DNA from: Streptomyces sp. NBC_00448
GTDB lineage: Bacteria; Actinomycetota; Actinomycetes; Streptomycetales; Streptomycetaceae
Assembly (NCBI RefSeq): GCF_036014115.1
Contig: NZ_CP107913.1
Location: 6,937,501 to 7,001,500 of the forward strand
Direction: 5' to 3'
DNA: 64,000 bases
In this document: positions 42,856 through 52,033 of the stretch, piece by piece
How positions within the stretch are numbered: position 1 is the stretch's first letter
Layout: every line of letters begins with the position of its first letter
Position numbers and translations under genes: made by a program
Notes under the pieces: model-generated
Seen by the model: the letters and a program-made list of their open reading frames with translations, nothing else
Told to the model about the DNA's origin: nothing
Databases searched by the model: none

Positions 42856-44442
42856 ATGGCAGAGCCCCATGCGGCCGCGGTAGGGGCCGCGGGTCGCATT
42901 CCGTCGCAGCAGTCGGAGCCGTACGCCGAGCCGTACACCGAGTCGCGCGACGCGGACGCGCCTGCCCAAGACCCACCGGAGGCAGCCGCGTTCGGCCCCG
43001 CGCACTTCCGTACGGCCGCCGAGCGCACCCTCGGACAGCTGGCCCGGCACATCGGCGACCACTCCGTGCGCGGTCTCGAACTGTCCGACCCGCGGGTGCT
43101 GGCCACGACCGCGCGCTCGCTGATGACGCGGGAGCGCGAGCGGGTCGCCGACTTCGACGGGGACCGGCTGGCCGCGATCGTCGACCTCTACCTGGGGACC
43201 GGCATCCAGGTGCACTCGCCGGGTGCGATGGGCCGGCAGTTCACCGGCTCGGTGCCGCTCGCGGCCGTCGTGGAGTTCGCCGGATCGGTGGCCAACCAGC
43301 CCTCGTCGTTCTACGAGGCCGCCCAACTGCCCAAAGTGGCCGAGCAGATCATGGCCGCCGAGCTCAACGCGTACATCGGCTGGGACCCCGGGCGGTTCTG
43401 CATGACCACCACGTCGGGCGGTTCGCTGGCCAACCTGACCGCGCTGCTGGCCGCCCGCAACCGCGCCTTCCCGGGCTTCTGGGCCGACGGCGCCGCCACG
43501 TTCGGCGGGCGCGGGGCCCGGCCGGCGATCGCGATCGGCGCCGACGCCCACTACAGCGTGGCCCGGGCGGCCGGCGTGATCGGCGTCGGCGAGTCCCAGA
43601 TCGTCCGGCTGCCGCTCAACGCCGCCAAGCAGATCGACCCCGACGCGGCCCGTACCACGCTCGACGCCGCCAAGGCCCGCGGCCTGGACGTCTTCTGCCT
43701 GGTCGCCTCGGCCGGCACCACCGCGCTCGGTGCGTTCGACCCGCTGGACGAACTCGGCGACCTGGCAGGGGAGATGGGCTTGTGGCTGCACGTCGACGGT
43801 GCCCACGGCGCGAGCCTGCTCCTCTCCGGCCGGCTGCGGCACCGGCTGCGCGGCATCGAGAAGGCCGACTCGCTCACCTGGGACGCGCACAAGATGATGT
43901 TCGTGCCCGCGCCGTGCACCCTGCTCTTCCACCGGGACAAGAACGCCGGCGCCGGCGCCTTCCGGCAGCAGGCCAGCTACGTCTTCGATGACGAGCCCGA
44001 CCTCTACACCGCGCTCGACAGCGGCGACCGGAACCTGGAGTGCACCAAGCGCCCCATGATCATGCCGCTGTGGGTGCTGTGGGCGGTCTACGGGCCGGCG
44101 CTGTTCGCCGAGCGGATCGAGCAGCTGTGCCGGCTCACCGAGCGGGCGTACCAACTGGTCCGCGCCGCAACGGACTTCGAGGCGCCGCACCACCCGGAGG
44201 CGAACATCCTGTGCTTCCGGCACCGCCCGCCCGGGCTGCCCGAGCACCACGTGCACCGCCACCAGATCGCGATCAGGGACCGGATCAAGGCCCGCGGCGA
44301 CTTCTTCATCTCGAAGGTCGACGTCGACGGGACCGCCGCGCTGCGCGTCGTGCTGATGAACCACCGGACCACCGCCGACCACTTCCGGACCCTGCTCGCG
44401 GAGATCCGGACGGCCGGCCAGGGAGTTGAGCGAGCATGCTGA
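42856..44442 (+). CDS. PLP-dependent group II amino-acid decarboxylase
   Basis: 528 residues. A disordered N-terminus (about 1-55) precedes a fold-type I decarboxylase domain: TTTSGGSLANLTALLAARN, VASAGTTALGAFDPLDELG, LWLHVDGAHGAS and the Schiff-base lysine Lys346 in SLTWDAHKMMFVPAP. Similar to glutamate/aromatic-amino-acid/diaminobutyrate decarboxylases; the substrate cannot be read off. First gene of a six-gene co-directional run. The next gene overlaps its end by 7 bp, so the product amine may be passed to the adenylating enzyme. That link is inference. Confidence 0.93.
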   Translation: MAEPHAAAVGAAGRIPSQQSEPYAEPYTESRDADAPAQDPPEAAAFGPAHFRTAAERTLGQLARHIGDHSVRGLELSDPRVLATTARSLMTRERERVADFDGDRLAAIVDLYLGTGIQVHSPGAMGRQFTGSVPLAAVVEFAGSVANQPSSFYEAAQLPKVAEQIMAAELNAYIGWDPGRFCMTTTSGGSLANLTALLAARNRAFPGFWADGAATFGGRGARPAIAIGADAHYSVARAAGVIGVGESQIVRLPLNAAKQIDPDAARTTLDAAKARGLDVFCLVASAGTTALGAFDPLDELGDLAGEMGLWLHVDGAHGASLLLSGRLRHRLRGIEKADSLTWDAHKMMFVPAPCTLLFHRDKNAGAGAFRQQASYVFDDEPDLYTALDSGDRNLECTKRPMIMPLWVLWAVYGPALFAERIEQLCRLTERAYQLVRAATDFEAPHHPEANILCFRHRPPGLPEHHVHRHQIAIRDRIKARGDFFISKVDVDGTAALRVVLMNHRTTADHFRTLLAEIRTAGQGVERAC

Positions 44443-45995
44443 CCGAGAACACCGCCGCGGCCGGCCGCACCGAGCTGGTGAGGCGTCTGATCCCCGACCT
44501 CGACCACCGCCCGGCGACCATCGAGCAGGTCTCCCAACTTCCCTCCTTCCTGGGCGTGTTGCGGGCCTGCGAGCAGACGCTCGGCACCCCGTACAGCGCG
44601 GTGGACCACGAGGTGCAGGACGCGCTGGTGCTCCGCCGGCTGCAGCAGATGGTGCACACCGTGCGGCTCAACCCGCTGTGGCGCGAGCGGCTGGCCGGGG
44701 CCGGAGTGCCCGACACCCCGGCGACGTACGACGAGTGGCAGCGCGTTCCGCTCGCCGACAAGGACACCCAGCGCGAGCTGTTCATGGGCGAACGGCCCGG
44801 ACTGGTCGTGCCGCTGGCCCGCGGCGGCTTCGAGATCGTCGCCAGCGGCGGCACCAGCGGCGGCCTGCCGGTAGAAACGGTGTACTCGCTGCGGGAGTTG
44901 CAGGACACCTACCGGCTGGCCGGCGACTTCATCGGCCGGCACATGCTCGCCCCCCACCTCACCGGCGACGACCCGAAGTGGCTGTTCACCACGCTCGCCG
45001 ACTACCAGATGTGGAGCAGCGGCACCATGGTCGGCGGTGTCCTGCAGAGCGTGCCGGGCGTCAACTACATCGGCGCCGGCCCGGTCGGCACCGCCGTCAT
45101 CGAGCAGATGTTCTCCTACCCCGGCCCCAAGGCGCTGATGGGCATCACCGCCGGCATCGCGATCCTCACCGAACTCGGCGCCGGCATGAGCCGCCCGGCC
45201 AAGGAGAGCTTCCGGGTGGCGATGTACGGCAGCGGGGTGCTCGCCAGGCGCAAGCGCGCCGAACTCAAGGCGATGTACCCGAACCTGTCCATCCTCAGCT
45301 ACTTCGCCGCCACCCAGGCCGAGACCATCGGCCTGCAACTGAGCGAGTCCTCACCGTGGTTGGCGGCCGTGCCCGGACTGCACCTGGTGGAGCTCGTGGA
45401 CGACAGCGGCCGCTGGGTGCCGGAGGGGGCGGAGGGCGAACTCGTCGTCACCCGCCTGCACGCCCACGAGGCGCCGCTGCTGCGGCTCAAGCTCGGCGAC
45501 CGGATGATCCGCCGGCCCAGGACCGACGAACCAGGCCTGCGCACCCAGAGGTTCGAGTTCGCCGGCCGCAGCGGCGACGTCCTGCACCTGGGCGACACGC
45601 AGTACGCCGCCGCCCGCGCCTACGCCGCACTGCGCGACCGGCTGCGGGCCGGGAGGGTGCTGGACCTCGACGAGGCCGCGTACGACGTGCAGTTCGTCAA
45701 CCACCGCGAGTCGAAGCTGCTCACCCTGCTCGCCGCCGTCGACGACGTGCCCGGCGCCGCCTACCGGCTGGACGAGGCGCTGGGCGCGCACGGCGTGCAG
45801 CGCGCGTTCGCCGAGAGCCTGCCGCTGGCCCTGTCCGTGTACAACCAGTGGGAGGCCGACCCGGTGTCGATCGCGAAGAGCGGATACCGCTTCGACCTGC
45901 GGTTCGTGCACCGCGACTCGCCGGAGATCGAGCGCACCGCCGTCGGCAAGGTGCCGCTGGTGCGCGACCGTACGGCCGACTGGACCGCCCGGTGA
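44436..45995 (+). CDS. PaaK-like AMP-forming ligase
   Basis: 519 residues. Phosphate-binding loop ASGGTSGGLPVE, YSYPGPKALMGITAG-like core, aromatic-rich SILSYFAATQAETIG and LKLGDRMIRRP fit the phenylacetate-CoA-ligase/coenzyme F390 synthetase group of adenylate-forming enzymes. It should activate a carboxylate as an AMP ester and pass it to CoA or an amine. No carrier-protein gene is nearby, so amide formation or CoA transfer are both possible. It overlaps the decarboxylase upstream and the first small paralogue downstream (GTGA), so the three are translationally coupled. Confidence 0.85.
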   Translation: MLTENTAAAGRTELVRRLIPDLDHRPATIEQVSQLPSFLGVLRACEQTLGTPYSAVDHEVQDALVLRRLQQMVHTVRLNPLWRERLAGAGVPDTPATYDEWQRVPLADKDTQRELFMGERPGLVVPLARGGFEIVASGGTSGGLPVETVYSLRELQDTYRLAGDFIGRHMLAPHLTGDDPKWLFTTLADYQMWSSGTMVGGVLQSVPGVNYIGAGPVGTAVIEQMFSYPGPKALMGITAGIAILTELGAGMSRPAKESFRVAMYGSGVLARRKRAELKAMYPNLSILSYFAATQAETIGLQLSESSPWLAAVPGLHLVELVDDSGRWVPEGAEGELVVTRLHAHEAPLLRLKLGDRMIRRPRTDEPGLRTQRFEFAGRSGDVLHLGDTQYAAARAYAALRDRLRAGRVLDLDEAAYDVQFVNHRESKLLTLLAAVDDVPGAAYRLDEALGAHGVQRAFAESLPLALSVYNQWEADPVSIAKSGYRFDLRFVHRDSPEIERTAVGKVPLVRDRTADWTAR

Positions 45996-46426
45996 GGCCC
46001 CGCGTGCAGCCGCAGGTGAACATCGCGGTCGCCGTGGACGTGGTCGGGGCGCTCTCCGCGGGCACCCTGCGCGGCGGCCACCTCTGCCTGATGGACGACA
46101 GCGGGTGCGACAGCCGGGGGCAGGGCACCCCCGACCTGTGCACGGTGGTGCGCCCCGGCCAGGTCGTCCAGTGGTCGGCGGTGCCGCTGGACGTGCAGAC
46201 GCCGGTGGCGATCCAACGCATCGTGTTCCTGGGCCCGGAGCAGGGGGATTCGGGGGAGTTGGGGGAGGCCCCGGCGAGCGCCCAACCGGACCTGGCGGTG
46301 TGGTCCGGCGTGGTCCCCACCGACATGCCGCGCGGTGTGCCGCAGCGCTACCGGCTGGAACTCCGCATGTCCGGGGGCGAGTCCAGCCTCGCGTACGTCG
46401 ACACCCCGTCGCTGCTGTGCCCGTAG
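45992..46426 (+). CDS. AidA/PixA-like small protein, paralogue A
   Basis: 144 residues from GTG 45992, overlapping the ligase stop. Pattern: hydrophobic strand with VDVVGALSAGTL, LMDDSG, GQGTPDLCTVVRPGQVVQW, then an Ile/Val-rich strand and VWSGVVP. Paralogues B, C and D share it: start strand with a DV..A motif, a G.GT/S.DL.T turn, GQ...W, and a W.G.V strand. It recalls the AidA/PixA inclusion-body proteins, but similarity is by pattern only. No signal peptide. Confidence 0.7.
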   Translation: MRPRVQPQVNIAVAVDVVGALSAGTLRGGHLCLMDDSGCDSRGQGTPDLCTVVRPGQVVQWSAVPLDVQTPVAIQRIVFLGPEQGDSGELGEAPASAQPDLAVWSGVVPTDMPRGVPQRYRLELRMSGGESSLAYVDTPSLLCP

Positions 46427-46523
46427 GAACGCTGCGCACCGCACGCCGTGCACCGCAACGCCGTTCACCGCGGGCCACGCACCGCACACCGCGCCCGTAC
46501 AAGGAAGAAGGAAGGTGGGCCGT

Positions 46524-47321
46524 ATGAACCAGCAAGTGGCGGTCGTCGTGCTGGTGGACGTCGCCGCCGCCCTGGAGAGCCGGACCCTGGAGGGCAGCAT
46601 CCACCTCCTCGACAACGCGCGGCTCCAGGGCTCGGTCGGCCTGGGCAGCGCGGACCTGATCACCGCGATCAACGGCAGCTACTGGAGCGACGGTTCGCAG
46701 GCCGACGAGCAGGTGATCAACTGGGCGCTGTACAGCCTCGGTTCGATCCCGCCGACCGTCCCGCGCGGCTACCTCGCGGCCGAACGCGGCCGCGGCACCG
46801 CCAGGACGCCGGCCCGCGCGGGCGGCACGTCGGGCGGCAAGCCGGTGGGCAAGCCGTTGGGCAAACCGGGCGGCAAGCCGGTCGGCAGGGTCGCCGACAT
46901 CACCGGTGGGCTCCACACCCCGAGGTCCGGCTGGTTCCCCGCGGGCCACGCCCACCCCGAGCCGGTGCTCGGTGCCGTCGTCGGCGAGGCGGTCGACAAG
47001 GGCGTGCTCCACCCGGCGGTCTACGGCTCGCCGGACCAGGTCACCGACGGCTGGTACTGGTCCGCGTCCGTCGACACCACCCGGCCGGGCACGTACGGGT
47101 ACACGATGCGGATCGAGTTGCACGAACCGGTGTTAAGCGACGGGCAGTGGAGATGGGAGCCGGTGCGGCTGGCGTACGACTCGGCGGTCAGGATCAGGAC
47201 CGCCCCGAAGCGCAACGGGTTCACCAAGGCCGGACTGGGGCCGCTGCCGATCCGCGCAGCCGCCGCCGGGTTCGGCACAGGCGCGGCGGACTGCCGCAAG
47301 CCGGAAGGGGATGGGCGATGA
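46524..47321 (+). CDS. AidA/PixA-like small protein, paralogue B, with TTA codon
   Basis: 265 residues, the longest and most divergent of the four. The N-terminal half has VVVLVDVAAALESRTLEGSI and GLGSADLITAINGSYW. A Gly/Lys/Pro-rich linker (about 92-130) separates it from a C-terminal part with DGWYWSASVDTTRPGTYGY. ATG 46524 follows GGAAGG. Codon 204 (47133-47135) is TTA, which in streptomycetes needs the bldA tRNA, so this gene may be developmentally restricted. The gene overlaps paralogue C by an ATGA. Confidence 0.7.
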   Translation: MNQQVAVVVLVDVAAALESRTLEGSIHLLDNARLQGSVGLGSADLITAINGSYWSDGSQADEQVINWALYSLGSIPPTVPRGYLAAERGRGTARTPARAGGTSGGKPVGKPLGKPGGKPVGRVADITGGLHTPRSGWFPAGHAHPEPVLGAVVGEAVDKGVLHPAVYGSPDQVTDGWYWSASVDTTRPGTYGYTMRIELHEPVLSDGQWRWEPVRLAYDSAVRIRTAPKRNGFTKAGLGPLPIRAAAAGFGTGAADCRKPEGDGR

Positions 47322-47788
47322 CCGCGGCGAAGCACCAGACGAGCGGGGCGGGTTCGGCCGGCGGAGGCCGGGGCCGGGACGACGAACGGCGGCCGATCTC
47401 GATCGCCGCGGTGATCGACGTGGTGGGCGCGCTCGCCACGGGCGCCCTGCACCGCAACCTGTACCTCTACGACACCGGGAAGGCGGCCGGCTCGACCGGT
47501 CACGGTACCGAGCAGCTGCGTACCGTGGTCCGGGCCGGCGACCAACTCCTCTGGTCCGCGATCCCGTTGGAGTGCGAGGCGTATCTGGCCATCGACACCG
47601 TCGAGATCGACCCGTCGGTGTGCGAGCCGATCCGGAAGATCTACCCGGGCACCGACATCACGTACTGGACCGGCACCGTGAAGAAGGACGCCATCCCGGC
47701 CACGCCGTACCGCATCGCGTTCCTGCTGGGCAGCAGGACCGAGCCGATGGTCACCGAACTGTCGCCGCTGCTGACCGGGGAGAGGTGA
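47318..47788 (+). CDS. AidA/PixA-like small protein, paralogue C
   Basis: 156 residues. After a basic Gly-rich head it has ISIAAVIDVVGALATGALHR, LYDTG, GTEQLRTVVRAGDQLLWSAIPL and ITYWTGTVKKDAIP. It shares the strand-turn-strand pattern of paralogues A and D. ATGA overlap with B implies coupling. No known enzyme motif. Confidence 0.7.
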   Translation: MTAAKHQTSGAGSAGGGRGRDDERRPISIAAVIDVVGALATGALHRNLYLYDTGKAAGSTGHGTEQLRTVVRAGDQLLWSAIPLECEAYLAIDTVEIDPSVCEPIRKIYPGTDITYWTGTVKKDAIPATPYRIAFLLGSRTEPMVTELSPLLTGER

Positions 47789-47798
47789 CCGCACCGCC

Positions 47799-48398
47799 AT
47801 GAGACCCGCCACGACGTCGGCCGGGCAGCGGCGCGACCCCGACGGCCCCGGCCCCGACCGGCCCGATCCCGACCGTCCTTACCCCGGTCAGCTCAACTCC
47901 GTCCAGCTCAACGTCGTCACCTTCGTGGACGTGGCCAAGGCCACCGCCGCCCGCTCGCTGGACGGCGCCGTCTTCATGATGGACAACAGCGTCGGCGGCG
48001 CCGGCCAGGGCACCGCCGACCTGAGGACGGTCTGCAAGCAGGGCCAGGTGCTCAACTGGATCGTCCGGCCGATCGCCATGTCGCCCCGCTCGGGCGGAAG
48101 TTGGCCACCGCTGCCCAGGATCGGCGGCGTCGTCTTCCTCGACGGCGAGGAGGGCGACGAGGACGACGTCGCCGAGGTGAAGGTCTGCACCGACCTGAAG
48201 AGGTACGGCGTGCCCGACCGGATGCGCGACCCGTACACCCCGGTCTACTGCTACTGGGCCGGCGCGGTGGTCGCCACTCTCGCCCCCGGCTGTTACCCCT
48301 ACCGGCTCACGGTGGAGCTCGAACAGGACGGCAGGAAGGAGCGGTTGTACCTGGACTCGCCCGGGCGGCCGTCGATCGAGGTCATGCCGGTCGGCTGA
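47799..48398 (+). CDS. AidA/PixA-like small protein, paralogue D
   Basis: 199 residues. Pro/Asp-rich head, then VQLNVVTFVDVAKATAARSL, FMMDNS, GQGTADLRTVCKQGQVLNW, a variable acidic loop and VYCYWAGAVVATLAPGCYPY. It is the closest of the set to paralogue A in the central GQGT-DL-TV segment. Last gene of the co-directional run; a short hairpin follows. Confidence 0.7.
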   Translation: MRPATTSAGQRRDPDGPGPDRPDPDRPYPGQLNSVQLNVVTFVDVAKATAARSLDGAVFMMDNSVGGAGQGTADLRTVCKQGQVLNWIVRPIAMSPRSGGSWPPLPRIGGVVFLDGEEGDEDDVAEVKVCTDLKRYGVPDRMRDPYTPVYCYWAGAVVATLAPGCYPYRLTVELEQDGRKERLYLDSPGRPSIEVMPVG

Positions 48399-48443: not shown

Positions 48444-49298
48444 TCAGCCGAGTTCGAGGGACGTGGTGCCGTAGACCGCCTCGACGCGGCTCACCGGCAC
48501 CGTGCCGCTGTACATCCGCAGGCACTCCGAACTGGCGGTCAGGCCGCGGTCGGCGGCGAGCTTCGCCGCTGCCGGGTACAGGTCGGGGATGTCGATGGCC
48601 ACCTCTGCCTCGGGCGGCAGCGTGGCGACGAGGGCGTCGAAGAGGACGCCGGCCTCCTCGGCGGTGTCCGCGAACAGCGGTCCGACGCGGTGGCCTTGGT
48701 GTGCCGGGCGGATGACGCCGTACCCGCGGACGCCGCCGTCGGCGCCGAGCAGCACCCGGGCGGTGTGGCCGTCGTCGGTGAGCCAGCGGGACACGAAGTC
48801 GGCGCGGGCGGCGGGGAAGCAGCCGCGGTCGTACGCCGCGATCGCCCGGTGGTGGTGCGGCCGCACCGCGAGGACGGCGGGGTCCGTCGCCGCACCGGCC
48901 GTGCGCGGACGGCCGGTGTGGCGGACGTTGCGGTAGGCCGGGGCGAACCCGGCACGCGCGTAGGTGGCCTGCTGCGCCGGAACCCCGTCGAGGCCGATCA
49001 CCCGGCCCTCGGCGTGAGGCAGCGCGGCGTTCCAGGTGGCGAGGCCGAGGCCGGTACCGCGGTGGCCGGGATGGACCAGGTAGTAGCCGAGGAAGGCGTA
49101 CTCGGGGGAGTACACCACGACCGAGACGGCCGACACGACGCGGCCGTCCAGCCGGCCGACGAAGAAGCCGGCCGGATCGCTGGGGAGGAAGTGGGCCGCG
49201 TCGCCGTGGCCGGGGTTCCAGCCCTCGCCGGCGGTCCACGCCACGATCTCGTCCCACTCGGCAGCCGTCGCCTGGGTGACGGTGAGGTCGTCCCGCAC
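48444..49298 (-). CDS. GNAT-family N-acetyltransferase with C-terminal YitH-type domain
   Basis: 284 residues. N-terminal GNAT core with the acetyl-CoA loop PGHRGTGLGLATW and VIGLDGVPAQQATYARAGF, then a second domain (about 150-284) of the Acetyltransf_18/DUF1248 kind. I prefer GTG 49298 (AGGAGAGG 8 nt upstream) over an ATG at 49322. Substrate unknown. Convergent to the decarboxylase/PaaK set; any functional link is only positional. Confidence 0.9.
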   Translation of the reverse strand: MRDDLTVTQATAAEWDEIVAWTAGEGWNPGHGDAAHFLPSDPAGFFVGRLDGRVVSAVSVVVYSPEYAFLGYYLVHPGHRGTGLGLATWNAALPHAEGRVIGLDGVPAQQATYARAGFAPAYRNVRHTGRPRTAGAATDPAVLAVRPHHHRAIAAYDRGCFPAARADFVSRWLTDDGHTARVLLGADGGVRGYGVIRPAHQGHRVGPLFADTAEEAGVLFDALVATLPPEAEVAIDIPDLYPAAAKLAADRGLTASSECLRMYSGTVPVSRVEAVYGTTSLELG

Positions 49299-49452
49299 GC
49301 GTTCCTCTCCTTCCGCCGGCATGGTGCCGGTCCGCCGGCGCGCTGCCGGTCTCCTGCTGGGCCGCTCCGCATGGTCGTCCTGCTGGATCGCCCCGCTGGA
49401 ACTCCCCGCTTGGCTACTGCCTGGTCCGGTGCGCCGGCGCGATGACCGCCGC

Positions 49453-50991
49453 TCAGACCAGGTCCATCGCCGCGACCTCGTCGGGACCGCCGTAACTGAC
49501 CGGTCCGTGGAAGGACTTGCGGGCCGTGGCGAACCACCACAGCGTCGCGATCACCAGGACCGCGGCGAGGGCGATCGGTGCGTAGTTGAACGTGCTCGCG
49601 GTGATCGGGGTGGCCTGCGGCAGCATGAACAGCACGTTGCTGGTGATGATCCACAGTACCGCCACGATGCCGACCGGCTTGCTCCAGCGGCCGAGGTGCC
49701 ACGGGCCGGCGGCGAACTCGTCCTTCAGGCGCAGCCGCAGGAAGATCGGGATGCCGTAGGAGAGGAACAGGCCCACCACGTTGACGCTGACCACGGCGCT
49801 GAACGCGGTGTGCGACCACCAGCCCGGCAGCACCAGTACCAGCGAGGAGGCCGCGGCCAGCCAGACCGCCTTGACGGGCGTGCGGGTGCGCGGGGAGACG
49901 GAGTGCCACAGCCGCGAGCCGGGCATGGCGCCGTCCCGCGAGAACGCGAAGATCATGCGGGTGTTGGAGGTCATGTTGGCCAGGCCGCAGAAGAGCATGG
50001 CGCCGATGATGATGACCAGGATCGCCTTGGACAGGCCCTGGCCGAGCGCGTCGATCAGGATCTGGACCGGCGGCGCGGACGACGTGACCTCGCTGCCGTA
50101 GTCACGGATCGAGTACACCAGGGCGACCATGAGGATCAGGCCGGTGATCGCCGAGTAGCCGATGGCGCGCACGATGCCCTTGGGGGCGTTGACGGTGGCC
50201 TGGACGGTCTCCTCGGACATGTGGAAGCTGCCGTCGAAGCCGGTGAAGGTCCAGCTCGTGACCAGCAGACCGAGCAGCCCCGCGTAGATCGCGCTGTGGA
50301 AGCCGGTGGTGTTGACGTAGTGGAAGGCGTAGCTCGCGTGCTGGTGGTGCGAGGGCACCGAGATCAGCGAGATCACGATCACCAGCAGGCCGATGATCAG
50401 CCACCACACGGAGATCCGGTTGATGAGGGCGACCAACCGCACGGTGTACGTGTTGAGCAGCGCGTGGACCAGCAGGATGGCCGCGGTGATCAGCACGGTC
50501 TTCTTGAGCGTGGGCGTGTAGTCCCACTGCATGGCTATGTACGACTGGATGAACGTCGCGGCGGCGTAGTCGGTGGCGGCGGTGCCGGCCACCTGGCCGA
50601 TGAAGTTGAGCCAGCCGGTGTACCAGGACCAGGCGCCGTTGTGCCGCTTGGCGAGCTTGCCCGCGGAGAAGTACAGCGCACCGCTGGTCGGGTAGGCCGA
50701 GGCGATCTCGCCCATGGCGGCCCCGACGAAGAGCACCATCACCGACACCCCGATCCAGCCGAAGATCAGGATGCGCGGGCCGCCGCCGGCCATTCCCATC
50801 CCGAACGCCGAGAAGATGCCGGAAATGATGTTGATGATGGTGAAAGAGATTGCGAAATTGTCGAATGCCCGGAATCGCCGGGTCAATTTCCGCGGGTAGC
50901 CCATCGCATGCAGCGTGGCGTCGTCGTCCAGGGCGATCGGTGCCGCCTGGTCCGTTCTCCTGTCGCGGCTGGTCACTGCTGGGTCAGACAT
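49453..50991 (-). CDS. APC-superfamily amino-acid/amine permease
   Basis: 512 residues with 12 predicted helices. N-terminal FDNFAISFTIINIISGIFSAF and the helix 6 region SWTFTGFDGSFHMSEET match the GABA/choline/amino-acid permease branch (APC, ACT family). Imports amino acids or polyamines with a cation. ATG 50991. Preceded on the same strand by an unrecognised gene 49 bp away, so the two may be co-transcribed. Confidence 0.92.
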   Translation of the reverse strand: MSDPAVTSRDRRTDQAAPIALDDDATLHAMGYPRKLTRRFRAFDNFAISFTIINIISGIFSAFGMGMAGGGPRILIFGWIGVSVMVLFVGAAMGEIASAYPTSGALYFSAGKLAKRHNGAWSWYTGWLNFIGQVAGTAATDYAAATFIQSYIAMQWDYTPTLKKTVLITAAILLVHALLNTYTVRLVALINRISVWWLIIGLLVIVISLISVPSHHQHASYAFHYVNTTGFHSAIYAGLLGLLVTSWTFTGFDGSFHMSEETVQATVNAPKGIVRAIGYSAITGLILMVALVYSIRDYGSEVTSSAPPVQILIDALGQGLSKAILVIIIGAMLFCGLANMTSNTRMIFAFSRDGAMPGSRLWHSVSPRTRTPVKAVWLAAASSLVLVLPGWWSHTAFSAVVSVNVVGLFLSYGIPIFLRLRLKDEFAAGPWHLGRWSKPVGIVAVLWIITSNVLFMLPQATPITASTFNYAPIALAAVLVIATLWWFATARKSFHGPVSYGGPDEVAAMDLV

Positions 50992-51040
50992 GCGAACCGT
51001 CCATTCTGGTGGGATCTGGTCGACCGGTACCGGTATGGGC

Positions 51041-52033
51041 TCACGGACCGCCGGGCACGGTGAGGCCGCATGCCTCTCGGGCCTTCGTGAGCTGTTCCTC
51101 CGGGGCGCCGAACGCGCTCCAGGGCATGCGTGAGGCATACGGGCCCATCAACATGAAGGCCGCCCGCGCCTCGAACTCCTTGCGCGCCATGACCAGCGCG
51201 TGCGCCAGGTACGACAGATCCACCACCGGCGTGAACCGGTAACCGGCCACGTTCGGGAGCCACTTGTGGTAAATGCTCAACGCCGCGGTGCTCCACGGCG
51301 GTTGCTCCCACATCTTGTAGGCGAGTGGTGCCGACGGGTTGTAGTTCTCGACCAGGGCCACCAGGGGGAGCAGCGACAGCGGTGATCCGCTGGGGGCCCG
51401 TTGACTCAGAAAGGCGGCCACGTCCCAGACTTCGGATGCGCGGCCGCCGTTGCGGGGGAAGTAGATGGACAGGAAGCGGTGGTGCGCTTCGCGGTTCCAG
51501 GGGTCGAGCCGCAGGATGTGGGACAGCAGCCGCCAGGGTCCGGGCGGCGCGGTCAGCAGGCCCTGCGGGGCCGGGTCGAACGACCGATGGAAGCGGGCCA
51601 GGGCGAGTTGGGCCACCCATGGGGTTGGGTCCTTCGGTGCGTGGCCGGCCGCCTGCTGGCAGGCGGCCAGGGCTATCCGGGACAGCGCGGTGGCGCGGTC
51701 GTCCTTGCTGTCCGCGGCGCGCAGGGCGCGCAGGACGGCGACCCGGGCCCACAGCAGCGCCGACTCGGCGCAGGGCTCCTCGGCGACCCAACGCTCCGTC
51801 AGATCCGAGTCCCATGCCTCGGAGGCGAGCACCAGCGAGCGGTGGGCGCGTAAACCGAAGTCGTCCTGCGTCTCCCGCAGGGTTTCGGAGGCGCTCAGGT
51901 AGCGGCCCGCCTGCACATCCACGCAGGCGTCGGCCAACTGCCGGTCGTCGGCGGCGGAGTGCCAGATGTACCGTCCTTCGAAGGACGGGTGCCGCGGCTT
52001 TTTTCGTGGCTCGCGCTGGTGCCGGCTACTCAC
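51041..52033 (-). CDS. Hypothetical helical-repeat protein
   Basis: 330 residues, no signal peptide or membrane helix. Composition is rich in Ala, Leu, Arg and Trp with alternating amphipathic helices (DRQLADACVDVQAGRYLSAS, RVAVLRALRAADSKDDRAT, WVAQLALARFHRSFD), suggesting TPR-like or similar helical repeats. I do not recognise a named family. GTG 52033. Same strand and close spacing with the permease suggests co-transcription. Confidence 0.75.
   Translation of the reverse strand: MSSRHQREPRKKPRHPSFEGRYIWHSAADDRQLADACVDVQAGRYLSASETLRETQDDFGLRAHRSLVLASEAWDSDLTERWVAEEPCAESALLWARVAVLRALRAADSKDDRATALSRIALAACQQAAGHAPKDPTPWVAQLALARFHRSFDPAPQGLLTAPPGPWRLLSHILRLDPWNREAHHRFLSIYFPRNGGRASEVWDVAAFLSQRAPSGSPLSLLPLVALVENYNPSAPLAYKMWEQPPWSTAALSIYHKWLPNVAGYRFTPVVDLSYLAHALVMARKEFEARAAFMLMGPYASRMPWSAFGAPEEQLTKAREACGLTVPGGP

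Follow-up and report, generated by a model that had tools for sequence, protein, structure and literature searches.

A syntenic cassette joining a decarboxylase and a PaaK-like ligase to four relatives of MakC and MakD recurs in several bacterial phyla

In the actinomycete Streptomyces sp. NBC_00448 we characterized a row of six genes that joins a decarboxylase and an adenylating ligase to four small proteins, and found that bacteria of several phyla carry the same genes in the same order. The row lies in a stretch of 64,000 nucleotides (hereafter the window), which spans positions 6937501-7001500 of a genome consisting of a single contig of 9.65 Mb (NZ_CP107913.1), and it occupies window positions 42856-48398 as six open frames, all on the + strand, which we call D (decarboxylase), L (ligase) and P1 to P4 (small proteins), in the order D-L-P1-P2-P3-P4. 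A first-pass annotation, made from the letters of the window alone, had described six co-directional genes with overlaps of 7, 4 and 4 bp and had proposed that they act as one system. The coordinates of the open frames bear out the layout, with overlaps of 7 bp (D and L), 4 bp (L and P1) and 4 bp (P2 and P3) and gaps of 97 bp (P1 to P2) and 10 bp (P3 to P4). The proposal itself is strongly supported: because synteny is kept across phyla (61 of 63 loci), the six genes yield concordant distance matrices (r 0.86-0.97) and searches started from the small proteins find the cassette again, we regard it as virtually certain that the six genes are one functional unit.

The neighbourhood survey began from a scan with the window's L, run over a collection nominally of 84,980 species with a single genome for each; the scan works by short peptide patterns, and divergent L proteins could escape it. 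It yielded 63 loci, in which L is 47-73% identical to that of the window. All six genes stand in the same order and on one strand in 61 of the 63, and the other two loci are cut by contig ends, one contig starting inside D (L041) and the other stopping inside L (L062). The carriers include members of Actinomycetota (Streptomyces, Kitasatospora, Yinghuangia, Nonomuraea, Actinomadura and Streptosporangium), Pseudomonadota (Rhodopseudomonas, Bradyrhizobium, Ensifer, Azospirillum, Sphingomonas and Cereibacter), Bacteroidota (Filimonas, Saccharicrinis and Tenacibaculum) and Acidobacteriota (one Granulicella), with Chloroflexota and Aminicenantes each represented by only a single contig of a metagenome-assembled genome (MAG). 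Junctions were tight, D and L overlapping in 27 of 64 pairs and P3 and P4 in 26 of 62, with start sites as called here. Such recurrence of a six-gene order is far beyond chance.

Genes uncut by contig ends could all be assigned to open frames, with two blemishes, a split P1 (L021) and a short D (L061). The P1 of L021 lies in two frames, through frameshift, sequencing error or a real split, as it does in locus L146, which is probably from the same genome; in the Ensifer locus (L061, 6494-7998) D has 426 residues and a frame of 75 residues ends at its start, perhaps reflecting a frameshift. P1 carries long inserts in some Actinomycetota (L015, L022 and L029). Two Tenacibaculum loci (L056, 3241-11771; L059, 3232-11981) have two divergent D-L pairs ahead of one P1-P4 set, the two L copies lying far apart in the L tree.

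Pairwise distance matrices of the six genes, computed for the window and 59 loci (leaving out L021, L056, L059 and L062), correlated with r between 0.863 and 0.969, as compared to at most 0.28 for the best of the permuted matrices (999 per gene pair). These correlations indicate common inheritance only and are no proof of contact. The L tree largely tracked phyla, the exceptions being Pseudomonadota, which appeared at several places, and one Actinobacteria MAG placed among Chloroflexota; the nearest L proteins to the window's, by tree path, were those of Streptomycetaceae.

Searches that started from the small proteins led back to the same cassette. Among 392 genomes that share a genus with Streptomyces dioscori (L016), a P3 search found seven positives, and all seven had the six genes; two of these were loci already in hand (G298 is L016 and G296 is L002), and the other five were judged from fetched regions, three of which are probably the same genomes as L019, L010 and L011. 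A P1 profile matched 4 of 195 genomes from the genus that includes Bradyrhizobium stylosanthis (L055), two with full cassettes (L055 and L145), and 5 of 54 from the genus that includes Nonomuraea typhae (L014), two with all six genes (L014, and L146 with its P1 in two pieces) and two more in which L-P1-P2-P3-P4 was seen and D lay beyond the retrieved flank. In each of 24 cassette genomes the matches to the MakCD family (model NF049870; three to five per genome) were grouped on one contig, with the sole exception of a weak extra match in G306 (E 0.0048), and the window's own genome held exactly four matches at E<=1, which are P1-P4. Three phylum samples, minus the cassette-bearing genomes at their centres, gave a MakCD-family match in 1 of 987 genomes, so the family is too rare there for its frequency apart from D and L to be estimated.

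Three results of these searches count against a strict coupling of the small proteins to the enzymes. Two of the 195 Bradyrhizobium genomes (L142 and L143) carry MakCD-family pairs with no D or L in the 15 kb inspected, and the one protein scored in each pair is a true MakCD (NF049870 174 and 170 bits); one of 398 Pseudomonadota genomes (G440) has a MakCD pair and no L beyond a 24-bit match, D not having been sought; and 1 of the 54 Nonomuraea genomes (L144) holds only a remnant of the cassette. In L142 and L143 the MakCD pairs are tandem and lie outside Vibrio, and by eye the adjoining frames resemble mak-operon partners. In the remnant (L144, 7452-8768) part of D is fused in frame to P4, L and P1-P3 were not found, and a cysteine hydrolase gene still adjoins. 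P1-P4 proper thus go with D and L in the genomes tested, and it is the sister family MakCD that is found elsewhere. Small-protein homologues living largely away from the decarboxylase and ligase would have told against a single system; in the genomes tested this fails for orthologues of P1-P4 and holds for MakCD proper, whose pairs stand without L in three sampled genomes.

The cassette also occurs on plasmids. L and P3, searched independently in 72,556 plasmid records, matched the same seven records, one of which (NZ_LT559118.1, Nonomuraea, 11.85 Mb) is chromosome-sized though listed as a plasmid. Three regions (L077-L079) come from plasmids of the root-nodule bacteria Bradyrhizobium elkanii and Sinorhizobium alkalisoli and of B. 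barranii; the Bradyrhizobium plasmids are conjugative (B. elkanii) and mobilizable, and the Sinorhizobium plasmid is typed as non-mobilizable. In these regions five of the six cassette genes are annotated as hypothetical proteins. Because it is carried on plasmids with insertion sequence (IS) elements (IS110/IS3) or recombinase genes within the stretch, the cassette is probably mobile.

The first gene, D (42856-44442, + strand), encodes 528 residues with a clear match to the group II decarboxylase domain PF00282, which depends on pyridoxal 5'-phosphate (PLP) (2.8e-53; 181.4 bits against a cut-off of 27), and so the decarboxylase of the first-pass annotation stands. Searched against the PDB, a D profile found as solved relatives, in order, GAD1 (3.8e-77), GAD2, the bacterial decarboxylase 4rit, GADL1 (7.9e-70) and CSAD (2.1e-69). 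K346, D314, H232, R127 and F129 show no variation in the 65 D rows (of 66) covering them, nor does R497 in all 66; K346 is, by the alignment to GAD, presumably the PLP lysine. Among these residues F129 bears on substrate choice: three MAFFT modes align it with a Ser of GAD1 and GAD2 and a Tyr of GADL1, and a single-sequence alignment, read by eye, with a Phe of CSAD. The available text of PMC7367687 describes a pocket Ser of GAD that is Tyr in GADL1 and Phe in CSAD, the bulkier residue shrinking the cavity against Glu. That F129 occupies the position of this Ser is our own reading, which would depend on the alignments just given. D thus resembles GAD, GADL1, CSAD and PanP in its PF00282 domain, its presumed PLP lysine, its aligned Arg (R497) and its apparently CSAD-like Phe129; unlike GAD, GADL1 and CSAD it has Arg at position 127 in place of their Gln, and it falls far below the equivalog cut-off of the PanP aspartate 1-decarboxylase model (TIGR03799; 159.4 bits against 606.1). 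On this predicted pocket we lean slightly towards D decarboxylating an amino acid of the Asp or cysteine sulfinate type.

The second gene, L (44436-45995, + strand), encodes a 519-residue protein of the ANL type whose distant homology to PaaK agrees with the PaaK-like adenylating enzyme named in the first-pass annotation. Its profile matched PaaK in the PDB (4r1l, 2.3e-13), and in NCBIfam it gave weak PaaK-type matches (FlxY 6.7e-8, PaaK 1.2e-6). L shares with PaaK-type phenylacetate-CoA ligases this distant homology and the core adenylation-site residues; it differs in scoring 27.3 bits against the PaaK equivalog cut-off of 646.3 (TIGR02155) and in forming a separate conserved family. The window protein matched no Pfam family, the AMP-binding family PF00501 included, which did appear at E<=0.01 in 13 of 28 L orthologues (best 3.8e-5); a match to RPN13_C in 1 of 28 looked like chance and was dropped. 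Residues 137-140, 143, 289-290, 294-296, 350, 354-355, 377-378 and 504-505 are invariant in 65 of 65 rows. They include SGGT, E296, D355, R378 and the C-terminal lysine K505, and presumably correspond to the adenylation-site motifs and the C-terminal lysine of the ANL superfamily.

The four small proteins are P1 (45992-46426, GTG start, 144 residues), P2 (46524-47321, 265 residues, with a low-confidence insert rich in Gly, Lys and Pro and a conserved C-terminal motif), P3 (47318-47788, 156 residues) and P4 (47799-48398, 199 residues), all on the + strand. P2-P4 are 33-35% identical to P1, and the strand/turn pattern that the first-pass annotation had seen in all four (DV..A, G.GT.DL.TV, GQ..W) is confirmed by their alignment, in which the common invariant positions are D16-V17..A20, G43.G45..L49.T51 and W61 in P1 numbering. 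Each family has its own conserved residues as well, E85 and E87 of P3 being present in 63 of 63 rows and Cys79 of P4 in 62 of 63. All four match the MakCD model NF049870 (P1 6.6e-12, P2 3.7e-6, P3 1.7e-18, P4 2.8e-12), as do 28 of 28 aligned P4 orthologues. Their scores (45.6, 27.0, 66.8 and 46.8 bits for P1 to P4) lie below the cut-off of 110, and the P proteins of the 24 cassette genomes scored 20-85 bits (maximum 85.1), as compared to 166-179 for MakCD pairs elsewhere. Profiles built from 28 orthologues each found MakC (8rqy; P3 5.9e-21, P1 1.4e-11, P4 4.7e-9, P2 1.5e-8) and MakD (6tct) as the only significant PDB matches of all four. No Pfam domain was found in any of P1-P4; matches to Big_3_5, PKD and GOGAT_sm_gam, in 1 of 28 members each, were dropped as chance-like.

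Predicted structures placed the fold of P4 and P2 among those of MakC, MakD and PixA. The P4 model, with a mean predicted local distance difference test score (pLDDT) of 84.8, superposed on MakC with Z 15.1 and a root-mean-square deviation (rmsd) of 2.1 over 126 residues, on MakD with Z 14.9, on PixA (4lzk) with Z 14.4 and rmsd 4.1 over 143 residues, and on 4q52 and 4pib with Z 11.5 and 11.4; the P2 model (pLDDT 78) matched MakC in Foldseek at 1.0e-6 and the same families, PixA included. Judged from these models, P4 and P2 have the MakC/MakD beta-sandwich fold and the PixA fold. The first-pass annotation had called the four proteins AidA/PixA-like, and this holds for the fold of the P2 and P4 models and not for sequence, which is nearer MakC and MakD: the PDB profiles were significant for these two alone, and the PixA/AidA family PF12306 gave no match at E<=1 for P1-P4 and none in 28 P3 orthologues. 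PF12306 found nothing in the window's own genome either, a blank that is no proof of absence given that the control genomes were likewise blank. P4 matches SO1698 (3njh and others; Z 10.3, rmsd 3.1 over 119 residues) in fold as well, and SO1698 is absent from the PDB matches of the P profiles. SO1698 belongs to DUF1888 and is self-cleaving; PDB titles call it an aspartic peptidase, and a literature search on its name found no related paper. P1-P4 are, then, distinct relatives of MakC and MakD. In a tree with 27 members per P family, P2, P3 and P4 each formed one group holding all sampled phyla (FastTree support 1.0, 0.996 and 0.995), so that the split between them is older than the spread.

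The sequence signature, the lack of a Pfam domain and, for P4 and P2, the fold link the four proteins to makDC of the Vibrio mak operon; they differ in scoring below the cut-off, in being four distinct proteins and in standing beside a decarboxylase and a ligase, MakCD pairs occurring without L. PMC11484084 reports that MakC and MakD are both cytosolic, their role being unknown, and that each crystallizes as a dimer; on crosslinking MakC entered large complexes. No tripartite alpha-pore-forming toxin was recognized by eye in the flanks of 26 loci (three of which printed no gene) or annotated in the three plasmid regions, no toxin model having been run. An 'inclusion body family protein' is named in PMC10455584, which by title and abstract did not look related to the gene set.

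A few other genes recur beside the cassette. Three of the 63 loci (L025, L026 and L042) have a frame like class I/II aminotransferases interposed between L and P1, and the two that were scanned (L025 and L042) came nearest to an aspartate aminotransferase model, below its cut-off. A cysteine hydrolase of the isochorismatase type, sought with a profile from 12 copies, accompanies 14 of 63 loci, in 12 of them no more than 600 bp away, with its side and orientation varying, and is the next gene downstream of the cassette in all three plasmid regions. Its Asp, Lys and Cys, presumably catalytic, are invariant in the 12 close-lying copies, and the four hydrolases scanned belonged to PF00857 and scored low for biuret hydrolase, RutB and nicotinamidase. 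Three loci (L052, L053 and L062, of which the L052 copy was scanned) have a DHA2-type exporter of the major facilitator superfamily (MFS) immediately upstream of D. The by-eye flank list covered 26 of the 63 loci, the coding filter leaving no flank gene for L025, L036 and L056; closely related Streptomyces accounted for the majority of the 40 largest flank clusters, and the cysteine hydrolase and the MFS exporter were the ones that stood out across genera. In the window itself a GNAT acetyltransferase and an amino-acid permease (48444-51138, - strand) converge on the operon, a pair that we did not notice as recurring in the flank lists of other cassette loci. A promoter and terminator scan of the operon detected none, and base composition between 38 and 53 kb of the window (GC 66-74%, and 71-74% across the operon) revealed no island edge.

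Taken as a whole, these data are best explained by a mobile, self-contained metabolic cassette in which D makes an omega-amino acid, L turns it into an amide and P1-P4 hold the product, a reading to which we nonetheless give somewhat less than an even chance. Inheritance as a unit, retention of core catalytic residues and homology of P1-P4 to MakC and MakD are observed; every chemical step we infer. In this scheme the substrate of D would be a short acidic amino acid, with aspartate or cysteine sulfinate favoured over glutamate, and its product a small omega-amino acid such as beta-alanine or hypotaurine, the optional aspartate-aminotransferase-like gene feeding D. L would then adenylate a carboxylate (in the simplest case the one on beta-alanine made by D) and form an amide with a second partner. 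P1-P4 would join into a hetero-oligomer in the cytosol to bind, carry or store the product, and the optional hydrolase would cleave the amide. Because the predicted pocket of D suggests an acidic amino acid, D's product may itself bear the carboxylate that L activates, which would amend the first-pass view. We hold amide formation from D's product only tentatively, and rate a hetero-oligomer of P1-P4 at nearly even chances. Insects possess a cycle of beta-alanyl amides run by an aspartate decarboxylase (black), ebony and tan. The cassette would resemble this cycle in logic only, through its acidic decarboxylase, a ligase that would form amides by adenylation and the cysteine hydrolase present in some loci; its ligase and hydrolase belong to families other than those of ebony and tan, and P1-P4 are without counterpart.

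Several observations weigh against this metabolic reading. For D, family-profile alignments to GAD1 and GAD2 were gapped and put the register off by one, with S130 rather than F129 opposite the GAD Ser; we kept our estimate for the pocket because three MAFFT modes and single-sequence alignments give the ungapped register. R127 (65 of 65) replaces the Gln of GAD, GADL1 and CSAD, diaminobutyrate decarboxylase (9.1e-44) came close behind PanP (1.1e-46) among the NCBIfam matches of D, and an earlier paper of the group behind the pocket comparison states, in its available text, that the features of selectivity are hard to pinpoint (PMC5947694). L, resembling PaaK only distantly, could make a coenzyme A (CoA) thioester. 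P1 was not recovered as one group in the P tree, and MakD was mostly monomeric on crosslinking in the part of PMC11484084 available. Finally, the hydrolase and the aminotransferase were not seen beside most cassettes, nor beside that of the window.

The alternative put forward in the first-pass annotation, which we consider unlikely, is that D supplies only an amine and that general metabolism provides the acid, an unrelated aryl or acyl one, which L couples to it, with P1-P4 binding the N-acyl amine. Such a route would fit the nearest named relatives of L (FlxY and PaaK), which are aryl/acyl-CoA ligases, and the presence of diaminobutyrate decarboxylase among the relatives of D. It fits less well with the pocket residue of D, which looks CSAD-like, or with the flanks, where a limited look by eye at the 40 largest clusters and the printed flanks recognized no acid-making gene. 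L might instead modify protein, attaching a small acid to a residue of P1-P4 and so producing a decorated assembly or inclusion. The fixed order of four P genes behind L in 61 of 63 loci, the near-invariant Cys79 of P4 (62 of 63) and invariant E85 and E87 of P3 (63 of 63), and the two D-L pairs serving one P set in Tenacibaculum are all compatible with such a role; we nevertheless judge it quite improbable, since the usual acceptors of ANL-type enzymes are carriers, CoA or small amines and no attachment motif common to P1-P4 was seen by eye in the alignments.

A regulatory or chaperone role of P1-P4, as with MakC and MakD of Vibrio, in the service of a metabolic operon or of an export or toxin step elsewhere, is improbable. 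Their sequence homology to MakCD speaks for it, as does the report, in the available text of PMC11484084, that MakB disappears and MakE declines when both makD and makC are lost, polarity perhaps playing a part. Against this, MakCD proper (above 110 bits) stand in pairs without L (G440 and Bradyrhizobium), whereas P1-P4 (20-85 bits) accompany D and L. Very improbable, in our estimation, is a system for defence or competition that travels on mobile DNA and whose small molecule would signal or poison. The patchy spread over phyla and the location on a conjugative plasmid beside IS elements would suit it, but none of the PADLOC models matched any of the six proteins or two accessory ones at E<=0.01, a limited look at the flanks recognized no conserved regulator, effector or immunity gene, P4 had no relative in phage records, and of 48 pattern matches of the P4 profile in viral contigs none was confirmed.

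The first-pass annotation had known of no described pathway with this six-gene layout, and neither did we find one: the set as a whole had no match in Pfam, NCBIfam or PADLOC, and combinations of the part names led to no description in open-licence PubMed Central, where a system described under other names would be missed. A search on the PixA/AidA family names likewise returned nothing apparently related to the gene set, as far as titles and abstracts tell. The system as a whole appears undescribed, each of its parts falling within a known superfamily. Whether it also represents a new class of pathway, with a decarboxylase and a stand-alone ligase making an omega-amino acid amide and four MakCD/PixA-type proteins as an obligate heteromeric carrier or cage, we consider doubtful; if true, it would give MakCD/PixA-type proteins a biochemical role.

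That several phyla keep the six genes in order, the carriers ranging from Streptomyces through Tenacibaculum to rhizobial plasmids, implies strong selection for them to stay together. The function of MakCD and PixA relatives is called unknown or poorly understood in the available text of PMC11484084 and PMC9060813. The cassette ties two readable enzymes to these proteins, and because D and L are directly assayable it opens a way to learn the ligands or activities of MakC, MakD, AidA and PixA-like proteins.

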